The position numbers and the translations under genes were made by a program. The notes below the pieces were generated by a model. It saw nothing but the letters and a program-made list of their open reading frames with translations. It did no database searches and was not told where the DNA came from. DNA of 8,838 bases. Source: Streptomyces violaceus (GTDB taxonomy: Bacteria; Actinomycetota; Actinomycetes; Streptomycetales; Streptomycetaceae). This document shows positions 4,942 through 8,838 of the stretch, in pieces. The stretch spans positions 3,597 to 12,434 of the forward strand of contig KL569136.1 in assembly GCA_000715635.1 (NCBI GenBank), written 5' to 3'. How positions within the stretch are numbered: the stretch's first letter is position 1; each line of letters opens with the position of its first letter.

Positions 4942-5613
4942 ATGACGGACACTCTGCGGGACATTCTGGACGCGGCGGCGCGGGGCGTCTTCCCGCCGGC
5001 GGACGGCGGGACGACGATCGTGAACCAGCCCTCGCCCAGGGACGCGGGGGTCCTCGCCTTCACGGCCCACTCTGTCGTCTTCACGGACGAGGATCCCGGG
5101 TGGATACGCCGGACGCTGGCCGCCGCCGACTGCGACAGGCTGGCGGCCACGATGAACGCCCGCTTCCTGGCGGCCCTCATGGACCGGACCGGGCGTACGT
5201 CCGACACGATCGACGTGCTGCTGACCGGTGCCGCGCTGCCCGGGGAGCCTCCCCTCGCGTTGACGGAGATCGACGATCCCGGCCATCCGCGGGTGGTCTC
5301 GGCACGCCGGCGCCGTGACGACGTGCGGGTGTGGGCCGCGGAGGGCGGGGTGCTCGTCCTGGGCCGCGGGGTGGCCGGGCGGTGGGAGGTCGCGGTCGAG
5401 GTGGACGAAGGGGCGCGGCAGCGAGGGCTGGGGCGGCGGCTGGTGGCGGCGGCGCGGCACCTGGCCGGGGGCGCGCCGGTGTGGGCCCAGGTGTCGGCAG
5501 GGAACGCCCGTAGTCTGCGGGCGTTCCAGGCGGCCGGCTACCGTCCCGTGGGCTCGGAGGTGCTGCTCAGTGCCAGGGCTGGTAGTGCGGGTTGCCCTCG
5601 CACTCGCTCATGA
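4942..5613 (+). CDS. GNAT-family N-acetyltransferase
   Basis: A 223-residue protein whose C-terminal half is a GNAT fold. VAVEVDEGARQRGLGRRL carries the acetyl-CoA loop Q160-R-G-L-G-R165, followed by helix RLVAAARHLAG, strand PVWAQVSAGNARSL with Asn188, and FQAAGYRPVGSEVLL with Tyr200. The N-terminal ~120 residues are not a standard GNAT piece and may bind the acceptor; the substrate is unknown. The ATG at 4942 has a strong AAGGAG site 7 nt upstream. The gene is divergent from merR and shares its operator region. At the 3' end it overlaps the ADP-ribosyltransferase gene on the other strand by 47 bp, so its last 15 or so residues (after LLSAR) come from bases that also code the toxin C-terminus and are not conserved GNAT sequence. 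Confidence 0.85.
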   Translation: MTDTLRDILDAAARGVFPPADGGTTIVNQPSPRDAGVLAFTAHSVVFTDEDPGWIRRTLAAADCDRLAATMNARFLAALMDRTGRTSDTIDVLLTGAALPGEPPLALTEIDDPGHPRVVSARRRRDDVRVWAAEGGVLVLGRGVAGRWEVAVEVDEGARQRGLGRRLVAAARHLAGGAPVWAQVSAGNARSLRAFQAAGYRPVGSEVLLSARAGSAGCPRTRS

Positions 5614-6175
5614 TCTCGGTCTTGGTCTGCTTGTCGACCGGGCAGACGCCGATGATGTACTGCCGTGCGATGCCGCCGGGGAAGGCGACCTCCTGCTGGT
5701 CGGCCCATTTGTGGGTGTCGCCGATGGTCTTGTTGACGTCGATGCCGCCGGGGGCGTCGACGTAGTAGTTGAAGCCGGGCCGCCACTTCTTGTAGAGGTC
5801 GTGGTCGTACGACGTCGACACGTACGGGGACGGCTGGTTGACCAGGACGTACTTCTCCAGGTCGTACTGGCCGGTGATGACGTCCTTGGGGTGGAAGCCC
5901 TGCTCGAAGATGACGGACGGGCCGCGGCCGTCGGCGCGGTAGAGGGTGCCGCAGCTGGTGCGCCAGGACGGCTCGGGGGTGATGCGGTCGACGTCGGCAC
6001 GGCGGTCGGCGGCGGCCTTGATCTTGTCGTCGAACCGGACGGGACAGGTGGCCGGCGCGGGGGCGGCGGCCGTGGCGGCCGTCGGGGCGGGCGCCTGGGC
6101 CGGCGTGGCGGCCGTGGTCGTGAAGACGGCCGCGAGGGAGAGGGCGGCGGCAGCGATCCGCCGCCGCAGGCTCAT
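5567..6175 (-). CDS. Secreted mono-ADP-ribosyltransferase of the ScARP/Scabin (pierisin-like) type
   Basis: A 202-residue exported enzyme expected to transfer ADP-ribose from NAD+ to guanine bases or nucleosides. A signal peptide (MSLRRR, hydrophobic 7-18, cleavage after ATPAQA at about residue 28) and a short Ala/Pro linker lead to the catalytic domain. It has the R-STS-QxE triad of this toxin class: Arg80 in LYRAD, Ser120-Thr121-Ser122 in YVSTSYD, and Gln160-x-Glu162 in DQQEVAFPGG. Gln two residues before the catalytic Glu is the pattern of guanine-modifying members such as pierisin, ScARP (S. coelicolor SCO5461) and Scabin. Four cysteines (44, 75, 178, 192) could form two disulfides. The domain is complete and all key residues are present. 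The ATG at 6175 is chosen for the signal peptide; a GTG three codons upstream is possible, and no strong ribosome site is seen. No immunity gene is recognised. Confidence 0.9.
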   Translation of the reverse strand: MSLRRRIAAAALSLAAVFTTTAATPAQAPAPTAATAAAPAPATCPVRFDDKIKAAADRRADVDRITPEPSWRTSCGTLYRADGRGPSVIFEQGFHPKDVITGQYDLEKYVLVNQPSPYVSTSYDHDLYKKWRPGFNYYVDAPGGIDVNKTIGDTHKWADQQEVAFPGGIARQYIIGVCPVDKQTKTEIMSECEGNPHYQPWH

Positions 6176-6275: not shown

Positions 6276-7454
6276 TCACCGGAAGATGCCCGTGTGGCCG
6301 AGGGAGTAGCGGCCGGGCTGCGGGTAGACCGCGAGGCCGTGCGGGCCGCTGCCGACGGGGATGCGGGCGAGCTGGGCGCCGGTGCGGGTGTCGATGGCGT
6401 AGACCTCGGCGTCGTAGCGGCCGGAGAGCCACAGGACCTTGCCGTCGGCGGAGACACCGCCCATGTCGGGGCTGCCGCCGTCGGGCAGGTCCCACTTCTT
6501 GGTGAGCTTGTTCCGGGTGAAGTCGAAGACGGAGACGGTGCCTTCGCCGCGGTTGGAGACGTACATCTCGCGGGAGTCGCGGCTGACGTAGAGGCCGTGG
6601 CAGCCCTTGCCGGTGGGCAGCAGGGTGGGCTCGGTGAACTTGTCGCCGTCCAGGACCCACATCCCGTGGGCCATCATGTCGGCGATGTAGAACCTCTTGC
6701 CGTCCGGCGAGACCTTCACGTCCTGCGGCATGGCGCCCTCGAACGGCAGTCTCTGCTGCCCGACGACCTTCATCTTCTCGGTGTCGACCTTGAGCAGTTC
6801 GCCGCTGAACTCGCAGGAGACGATGAAGTAGCGGCCGTCGAGGGAGAAATCGGCGTGGTTGACGCCGTAGCAGGAGACCGGGACCGTCTTCTTGATGTCC
6901 ATGGTGTGCGGGTCGCGGAAGACCAGCTCGCGGTCGAGGGAGGCCATCACTACGGCGTACTTGCCGTTGGGCGTGAAGTAGAGGTTGTACGGGTCATGGA
7001 CCTCGACCTCCTTGCCCGCCTTGCCCGTCTTCGGATTGATCGGGGTGAGGGTGTGGCCGCGGTTGTTGTTGACCCAGAGCGTCTTCAGGTCCCAGGAGGG
7101 CACGACGTGCTGGGGCTGCCGGCCCACGGGGATCGTCTCGATGATCTCGTACGTCTTCGGGTCGATGACGGAGACGGTGTCGGACTCGGTGTTGGGGACG
7201 TAGACCCGGGACGGGAAGCCCTTGACCACGGGTGACAGCTTGTTCGGGCGGTCGGCCGCATAGACGTCCTTCGGGTCGAGGACGGGCGGCATGCCCGGCA
7301 GGCCCTGGACGGCCTTCTTCTCGGGCGGGGCGGGCACGGCGGCCTTGGTGGGGCGTGTATCGGAGGTCCGCTCCTCGCCCTGGGTGCCACAGGCGGCGAG
7401 AACGGCGAGGGCGGCGCCCGCGACAAGGGCGCTTTTGACGAAGTGGCGGTGCAT
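6276..7454 (-). CDS. YVTN-type beta-propeller lipoprotein
   Basis: A 392-residue exported protein. MHRHFVKSALVAGAALAVLA ends in the lipobox L19-A-A-C22, so it should be lipid-anchored on the outer face of the membrane. After a Pro/Lys-rich linker (about 25-75) come repeated propeller blades: YVPNTESDTVSVIDPKTYE, then LWVNNNRGHTLTPINPKTG, YFIVSCEFSGELLKVDTEKM, YVSNRGEGTVSVFDFTRN and LWLSGRYDAEVYAIDTRTG, most with the surface strand-turn of YVTN repeats. Related folds occur in S-layer YVTN proteins and in NirF / cytochrome cd1 haem-d1 domains. His residues (HVVPS, NHADF, GCHGL, GPHGL) recur at blade starts, and the partner or substrate is unknown. The ATG at 7454 fits the signal sequence, though no ribosome site is evident. 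It lies 100 bp upstream of the ADP-ribosyltransferase on the same strand. Confidence 0.87.
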   Translation of the reverse strand: MHRHFVKSALVAGAALAVLAACGTQGEERTSDTRPTKAAVPAPPEKKAVQGLPGMPPVLDPKDVYAADRPNKLSPVVKGFPSRVYVPNTESDTVSVIDPKTYEIIETIPVGRQPQHVVPSWDLKTLWVNNNRGHTLTPINPKTGKAGKEVEVHDPYNLYFTPNGKYAVVMASLDRELVFRDPHTMDIKKTVPVSCYGVNHADFSLDGRYFIVSCEFSGELLKVDTEKMKVVGQQRLPFEGAMPQDVKVSPDGKRFYIADMMAHGMWVLDGDKFTEPTLLPTGKGCHGLYVSRDSREMYVSNRGEGTVSVFDFTRNKLTKKWDLPDGGSPDMGGVSADGKVLWLSGRYDAEVYAIDTRTGAQLARIPVGSGPHGLAVYPQPGRYSLGHTGIFR

Positions 7455-7566: not shown

Positions 7567-8163
7567 TCAGCGGTCGACGACCCGCATCTCGAACCACGTC
7601 GTCTTCCCCCGGGGCAGCAGATCGACCCCCCAGCGGTCGGCCAGCTTGTCGACGAGGAAGAGGCCCCGGCCGCTGACGTCCATCTCCTGGACCGGCATCA
7701 GACAGGGCAGCCCCCGGGAGGGGTCGCGGACCTCGACGCGGATCCAGCCGCGGCGCCGGTGCAGACGCAGCCCGAAGACGCGGGCGCCGGTGTGGCGTAC
7801 GGCGTTGCCGACCAGTTCGGAGACGAGTAAGACCGCCTCCTCGGTGATCTTGGGGGTGAGTCCCCACTGGCGCAGGACCACGACCTGGGTGAGCCGTCTG
7901 GCGGTGGCCGCGGACTCGGGGCGGGACGGCAGTGGGACCTCTGCCTCCGTCGGGTTGCCGTACAACTCCAGCGCCTTCAGCGCGTGTTCGTCCTCGACGG
8001 TCGGCGACCAGCGCGCCGCGGCCGCCTGTGCGTGCCCCCGCGGCTGTTCCATACCCTCCAGCCCCGCCATGCCCCCCATCATGGCCGCCCGGGACGCCCG
8101 ACGGGGCCGTTCCCGGGGAATAGACCCCTCGGAACGGACCCTGAACCGGCAGTCGGACGTCAT
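7567..8163 (-). CDS. Anti-sigma-factor-type ATP-binding protein (HATPase_c_2)
   Basis: A GHKL-fold ATP-binding domain protein of the RsbW/SpoIIAB-like group that is abundant in Streptomyces, where such proteins may act as serine kinases or partners of anti-anti-sigma factors. The ATP site is visible: ITEEAVLLVSELVGNAVRHT holds the N-box (E-L-V-x-N-A), VRDPSRGLP the G1 region, and DVSGRGLFLVDKLADRWG the G2 box and lid; WFEMRV closes the sheet. The N-terminal ~85 residues have no domain, with MEQPRGHAQAAAARWSPTVE leading into the fold. The start is uncertain: ATG at 8211, 8163 (used here), 8082, 8079, 8070 or 8052 are all in frame and none has a clear ribosome site. The target sigma factor is unknown, and no sigma or anti-anti-sigma gene is nearby. 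An inverted CTTAAGG repeat pair lies upstream. Confidence 0.82.
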   Translation of the reverse strand: MTSDCRFRVRSEGSIPRERPRRASRAAMMGGMAGLEGMEQPRGHAQAAAARWSPTVEDEHALKALELYGNPTEAEVPLPSRPESAATARRLTQVVVLRQWGLTPKITEEAVLLVSELVGNAVRHTGARVFGLRLHRRRGWIRVEVRDPSRGLPCLMPVQEMDVSGRGLFLVDKLADRWGVDLLPRGKTTWFEMRVVDR

Positions 8164-8256
8164 ATGCCAAAGGCACTTCGGAGCCTTCCGCGGGCCGCCT
8201 GAGCTGCGCATACGACCAGTTCCGGGGCAAGCGACGAAGTTCCCCGCCCGGACAGG

Positions 8257-8345: not shown

Positions 8346-8813
8346 TCAGAGGAACTTGGCCTTGCCCGGCCCCTCCTCCACGAAGCTGCGCATGCCGCGC
8401 TCACGGTCCTCGGTGGCGAACAGGCCCGCGAACCAGTTGCGTTCGATGGTCAGGCCCGTCTCGATGTCCGTCTCCAGGCCGGCGTCGATCGCCTCCTTCG
8501 CGGCGCGCAGCGCGAGCGCCGGGCCCTGCGCCAGCTTCGCGGCCCAGGCGTGTGCCTGCGCGTACACCTCGTCGGCGGGCACGACCCGGTCCACCAGGCC
8601 GATCTCCCGCGCCTCGTCGGCCTTCACCATCCGGCCGGTGAAGATCAGGTCCTTGGCCTTGGAGGGGCCGACCAGACGGGCCAGGCGCTGGGTGCCGCCC
8701 GCGCCGGGGATCAGGCCGAGCAGGATCTCCGGCTGGCCGAGCTTGGCGTTCTCGCCGGCGATGCGGTAGTCCGCGCACAGCGCGAGTTCGCAGCCGCCGC
8801 CCAGCGCGTAGCC
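8346..8813 (-). CDS. Enoyl-CoA hydratase/isomerase (crotonase family), C-terminal 155 residues, cut by adapter
   Basis: This is the C-terminal 60% of a crotonase-fold enzyme that hydrates trans-2-enoyl-CoA in fatty-acid beta-oxidation or a related acyl-CoA pathway. The fragment starts GYALGGGCELALCADYRIAG, which includes the oxyanion-hole Gly-Gly-Gly and the first catalytic Glu (fragment residue 9, equivalent to Glu144 of rat mitochondrial hydratase). QPEILLGLIPGAGGTQRL follows, with the second catalytic Glu (residue 29, rat Glu164). Both glutamates favour true hydratase activity. The end, FVEEGPGKAKFL, is the usual C-terminus. The N-terminal ~100 residues are not missing from the organism: genomic sequence stops at about 8812-8814, where a transposase adapter is joined. 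The ATG at 8630 is internal. From memory, an enoyl-CoA hydratase is also near ScARP in S. coelicolor. Confidence 0.92.
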   Translation of the reverse strand, partial: GYALGGGCELALCADYRIAGENAKLGQPEILLGLIPGAGGTQRLARLVGPSKAKDLIFTGRMVKADEAREIGLVDRVVPADEVYAQAHAWAAKLAQGPALALRAAKEAIDAGLETDIETGLTIERNWFAGLFATEDRERGMRSFVEEGPGKAKFL

Positions 8814-8838
8814 CGTCTCTTATACACATCTCTGATGG
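8813..8838. other. Sequencing adapter contamination: Tn5 mosaic end plus 454-type Nextera adapter
   Basis: GTCTCTTATACACATCT at 8815-8831 is identical to 17 bases of the 19-bp hyperactive Tn5 mosaic end used in transposase-based library kits; over the full 19 bp, 8813-8831 matches 18. The last seven bases, CTGATGG, are the reverse complement of CCATCAG, the 3' end of the 454 primer A that flanks the mosaic end in the 454 version of Nextera. The enoyl-CoA hydratase frame stops making sense exactly here, and a frame through it starts Met-Cys-Ile-Arg-Asp, a familiar adapter artefact. This is not an insertion sequence in the genome. Confidence 0.95.

Follow-up and report, generated by a model that had tools for sequence, protein, structure and literature searches.

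The closest described relatives of the enzyme considered here are the ADP-ribosyltransferases (ARTs) ScARP (SCO5461) of Streptomyces coelicolor, Scabin of Streptomyces scabies, and Pierisin-1 of the cabbage butterfly. ScARP is described as a toxin that is secreted and probably serves in conflict with other microbes (PMC9411070, PMC11833690), and strains with a disrupted SCO5461 are said to be altered in differentiation and in the production of antibiotics (Szirak 2012, cited in both PMC5087735 and PMC11833690). The same guanine-ADP-ribose linkage is reported for ScARP and for DarT1 of the DarT1-NADAR toxin-antitoxin system (PMC11543638). NADARs of several other organisms reverse the ScARP modification of guanine on DNA and RNA in vitro (PMC11543638, PMC11125620, PMC11833690), whereas the macrodomain and ARH proteins tested in the reports consulted did not (the same three sources and PMC9411070), the macrodomain protein SCO6735 being inactive on ScARP-modified guanosine (PMC9411070). 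It has been proposed that unlinked NADARs may protect organisms that carry such ARTs (PMC11543638).

The DNA analyzed (the window) is a stretch of 8,838 nucleotides from Streptomyces violaceus, and the ART that it encodes has the same motif residues and domain layout as ScARP and the same motif as Scabin. It differs from both in its PN loop, which is one residue shorter and carries Arg in place of Tyr after a conserved Trp; in the window protein and the ScARP-like sequence alike, Gln and Lys take the places of Scabin Lys181 and Arg183. The catalytic stretch is also similar to that of Pierisin-1 (E 2.8e-10), but the window protein, with one Pfam domain in its 202 residues, lacks the second, receptor-binding domain. 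In contrast to the DarT1-NADAR system, the ART is of a different type, and the NADAR of this genome is encoded on a different contig and does not follow the ART in its distribution.

The ADP-ribosyltransferase gene and its active site

The minus-strand open reading frame at 5567..6175 is complete, with 202 codons plus a stop and an ATG at 6175; the coordinates, strand, and length assigned to it in an earlier, sequence-only reading of this DNA were correct. Several close relatives begin three codons farther upstream in the alignment, and the start is thus uncertain by a few codons. The same reading had placed the protein in the pierisin/ScARP/Scabin group, which was right and can be tightened to an equivalog-level ScARP/Scabin assignment: the protein matches NCBIfam equivalog NF041482 at 377 bits (cut-off 250), the Pfam Scabin-like family PF22596 at 146.8 bits (cut-off 27), the Scabin chain 5ewk over its whole length (E 5.4e-99), and chain 5zj4 (E 6.9e-93). 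The database label of 5zj4 is merely "ADP-ribosyltransferase", and we took this chain as ScARP from the visual agreement between its sequence and that of the ScARP-like protein P0063, to which the window protein is identical at 154 of 202 residues (76%). P0063 is named guanine-specific ADP-ribosyltransferase by one source, and its Gln162 and Glu164 have ScARP's published numbers; from these numbers and the sequence, we take it to be ScARP. Among the best 120 of 663 matches, the nearest named relatives are from S. violarus (97%) and S. violaceus (96%), and the draft genome from which the window derives shows a single copy. Judged by its sequence, the protein is an intact member of the known ScARP/Scabin kind and an ordinary orthologue.

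Residues 1-43 (6047..6175, minus strand) are predicted from homology and composition, namely an Arg-rich start, a hydrophobic stretch, and an Ala-rich end, to comprise a signal peptide followed by an Ala/Pro-rich linker. For the active site, the query was aligned with 37 relatives picked for spread among those best 120 matches. Over these 38 rows, Arg80, the NAD+-site arginine (codon 5936..5938), Ser120 and Thr121 (Ser120-Thr121-Ser122, 5810..5818), Trp131, and Gln160 and Glu162 of the QxE motif (Gln160-Gln161-Glu162, 5690..5698; all minus strand) are invariant, and residue 122 is Ser or Thr. Arg80, STS 120-122, and Gln160-x-Glu162 had all been read at these positions from the letters alone and, residue 122 apart, every one of them proved invariant. 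Trp157 is nearly so, being Tyr in only three of the 38 rows (P0031, P0032, and P0036); it corresponds to Trp155 in the ARTT loop of Scabin, and the Ala variant at that position is reported to have a transferase kcat of 5.5 per min against 186 per min (PMC7828395). AlphaFold models made from the single sequence and from the 38-row alignment, in which the relatives are 72-97% identical, were of low confidence (mean pLDDT 34.6 and 35.5, respectively), but the ART fold is very likely because the sequence matches solved structures. Homology would assign guanine binding to Gln160 and roles with NAD+ and in catalysis to Arg80, Ser120, and Glu162; the enzyme, which is predicted to be exported, would likely use NAD+ as the ADP-ribose donor and the N2 amino group of guanine as the acceptor, whether in nucleotides, RNA, or DNA.

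At an E-value of 0.001, PF22596 is matched in 145 of 392 Streptomyces genomes, and at 130 bits or more, which is the level of most free-standing orthologues, in 81 of the 392 (counted by hand from the listed rows), the genome of the window included. This agrees with the statement that SCO5461 is absent from most Streptomyces species (PMC5087735). The ART copies at L055, L056, and L057 look shortened or broken: the match covers 369 nt at 54% in L055, the frame is broken in L056, and residues 165-202 alone are matched in G124. Two further loci, L066 (G023:C1:2205000-2220000) and L067 (G390:C3:3296000-3311000), hold giant open frames of 18430 and 8738 codons, each with two Scabin-like domains and a papain-fold toxin domain (Gln_amidase); they are likely polymorphic-toxin proteins.

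A shortened PN loop

The conserved Trp is separated from an Asn-Tyr-Tyr by five residues in Scabin and in the ScARP-like sequence, and 82 of 83 proteins with this long loop have Tyr or Trp as the first of the five. In the window protein, the loop (5771..5785, minus strand) comprises Trp131 and a shortened Arg-Pro-Gly-Phe, which has no aromatic residue at the position of Scabin Tyr129. This four-residue loop is shared with 37 other proteins, making 38 of 121, and all 38 fall on one side of a single branch that has a support of 100/100 and is present in 100% of 200 bootstrap trees, the tree having been built with the loop columns included. The loop could be read at 51 of 54 related loci, 16 of which have the short and 35 the long form.

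Neighboring genes and evolutionary rates

Tail to tail with the ART lies a gene for a GNAT acetyltransferase (4942..5613, plus strand; PF00583, E 7.9e-5), which overlaps it by 47 nt at 5567-5613. Upstream and on the same strand as the ART are a YncE-like beta-propeller gene (6276..7454, minus strand; PF21783, E 1.6e-25) and a conserved neighbor encoding a histidine-kinase-like ATPase of RsbA/anti-sigma-like type (7567..8211, minus strand; PF13581, E 1.7e-14). At the end of the window, positions 8813-8831 (12409-12427 of L061) hold, with one mismatch, a copy of what we take to be a sequencing-library transposase adapter, and a run of N begins a few bases beyond it (from 12435); adapter and N run are an artefact of the assembly and interrupt the gene for the enoyl-CoA hydratase.

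A pattern scan, which is not a complete census, yielded 54 related loci, some of which end at contig ends. YncE is present in 41 of them, the ATPase in 48, and GNAT in 33, each in constant orientation; 13 of the loci thus have an ART but no YncE, and 21 an ART but no GNAT, the contig ends accounting for some of these. In the 33 loci with GNAT, the overlap with the ART is 47 nt in 17, 50 nt in two, 19 nt in two, absent in 10, and unreadable in two. We then compared 40 ART-lacking genomes, each of at most five contigs, in which the enoyl-CoA hydratase was found in all 40, YncE in 26 (E 1e-60), and GNAT in 22 (E 1e-20). In seven (G004, G007, G065, G091, G101, G140, and G166), GNAT and YncE face each other no more than 60 nt apart, leaving no space for an ART, and at the four of these sites that were read (G004, G007, G065, and G101), there was no ART match at E 0.001. 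In G124, a remnant matching the last 38 ART residues (165-202) at 82% persists between YncE and a GNAT match broken into three pieces, and in G098, GNAT and YncE are 2.2 kb apart; in none of the remaining 31 was the pair found adjacent. The empty sites and the remnant indicate that GNAT and YncE are independent of the ART, which can be missing or lost while its neighbors stay, and that neither is likely to be a dedicated antidote. The ART gene behaves as a unit of its own, set between two convergent genes that are also found in its absence.

The mature ART has a median dN/dS of 0.55 (0.36-0.86) against 52 related loci, whereas the medians for its neighbors are 0.32 for GNAT (29 loci), 0.21 for YncE (40), and 0.15 for both the ATPase and the hydratase (46 each); the ART value exceeds those of YncE and the ATPase in all 37 loci that hold all three. 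The protein is constrained, but less so than its neighbors. Its high ratio is partly due to a low dS, as the median over window positions 5567-6046 is 0.22 versus 0.31-0.57 for the neighbors at the same loci. A hidden overlapping element was considered as the cause of the low dS and disfavored, codon identity being 0.76-0.95 in windows along the whole gene. Because this identity is gene-wide and tracks C-ending codons, which make up 86% of those in the mature ART where such a choice exists, codon usage is the simplest reading; it is perhaps a mark of strong translation, and recombination between species may also account for the low synonymous divergence. Synonymous-site conservation is highest (0.95) in the last ART codons, within the tail-to-tail overlap with GNAT.

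Self-protection and alternative readings

The genome of the window contains one NADAR match, on contig 153 of the draft assembly, the ART being on contig 37; the NADAR frame occupies positions 1348-1947 of L002. Aligned with chain 8bau, it has identical residues at all eight positions that are described as NADAR ligand contacts or catalytic residues (Glu43, Lys50, Arg79, Trp89, Arg93, Glu125, Asp130, and Trp133 as numbered in PMC11543638), if, as we assumed, 8bau corresponds to the P. nicotianae protein and is offset by two residues. PADLOC matches this protein to PDC-M42C (E 2.1e-40) and gave no match for the ART, GNAT, or YncE proteins; NCBIfam names it a riboflavin biosynthesis intermediates N-glycosidase (169 bits). 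A NADAR occurs in 373 of the 392 genomes of the genus, namely in 79 of the 81 with an ART of at least 130 bits and in 294 of the 311 without (Fisher p 0.39), and no match was found in two ART-carrying drafts, G028 and G330 (98% completeness). NADAR was thus rejected as a dedicated, co-inherited antidote, its distribution over the 392 genomes not following that of the ART; being so widespread with or without an ART, NADAR is at most a general safeguard and not a partner. The passages of PMC11543638, PMC11125620, and PMC11833690 that we consulted contain no test of a Streptomyces NADAR, which may exist elsewhere.

Taken together, the reading that we hold with considerable confidence is of an exported guanine ADP-ribosyltransferase encoded by a self-contained gene, with self-protection that would come from export together with the general NADAR hydrolase encoded elsewhere, rather than from a neighboring antidote. 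It draws on the equivalog match, the solved relatives, the invariant catalytic residues, and the 76% identity to P0063; on the coding constraint, the empty sites, the G124 remnant, and a NADAR in the same genome that has the published ligand residues; and on the ScARP activity and its reversal by NADARs already in print. Against it are the low confidence of the structure models, a dN/dS above that of the neighbors and hence weaker constraint, a PN loop unlike that of either characterized enzyme, and a NADAR that does not track the ART, is missing from G028 and G330, and has a riboflavin-intermediate name. The sequence-only reading had found no dedicated immunity gene beside the ART, and the empty-site comparison bears it out; its suggestion that export alone or a neighboring antidote protects the producer was incomplete in overlooking the NADAR elsewhere in the genome, and the neighbor half of it is disfavored by the empty sites. 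The invariable orientation of GNAT (33/54) and YncE (41/54) and the recurrence of the 47-nt overlap (17/33) could be expected if the convergent GNAT or the beta-propeller protein neutralized the enzyme as a linked immunity factor. However, an adjacent partner that is co-inherited with its toxin is not what was found, since the pair faces each other without an ART in seven of the 40 ART-lacking genomes and some of the 54 loci have an ART without one or other neighbor, and we regard either gene acting in this way as highly improbable.

It is conceivable, though unlikely, that the enzyme acts not on rivals but on extracellular or envelope targets in the producer's own development, as the phenotype of the SCO5461 disruption might imply (Szirak 2012, cited in PMC5087735 and PMC11833690); the ART is not a general developmental factor, however, because most genomes of the genus (all but the 81 of 392) do without one. 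Somewhat less probable still is that the short loop grips duplex DNA poorly, so that the enzyme would have free guanine nucleotides or RNA as its main substrates. The confinement of this loop to one branch of 38 among 121 proteins is consistent with such a shift, as is the modeling of Scabin Tyr129 as a DNA contact (PMC7828395). On the other hand, the tabulated transferase kcat values for Scabin Y129A and Y129K are 119 and 132 per min versus 186 per min, the text of that paper is divided on the effect, terming it severe at one point and modest at another (PMC7828395), and ScARP is reported to accept nucleotides with no change in the loop; from the Y129A value and this mixed wording, the functional consequence of the short loop is likely modest.

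For the exported enzyme that we favor, the near-universal presence in the genus of a family whose members reverse ScARP modification means that the question of how a producer survives the enzyme it makes can be put to a simple test by removing a gene, and the natural short-loop branch supplies ready variants with which to probe the role of the loop aromatic. It would be a long shot, but one Streptomyces branch may have reshaped the DNA-gripping loop into that of a nucleotide- or RNA-directed enzyme, with the near-universal NADAR serving as a shared, unlinked antidote that confers tolerance across the genus.
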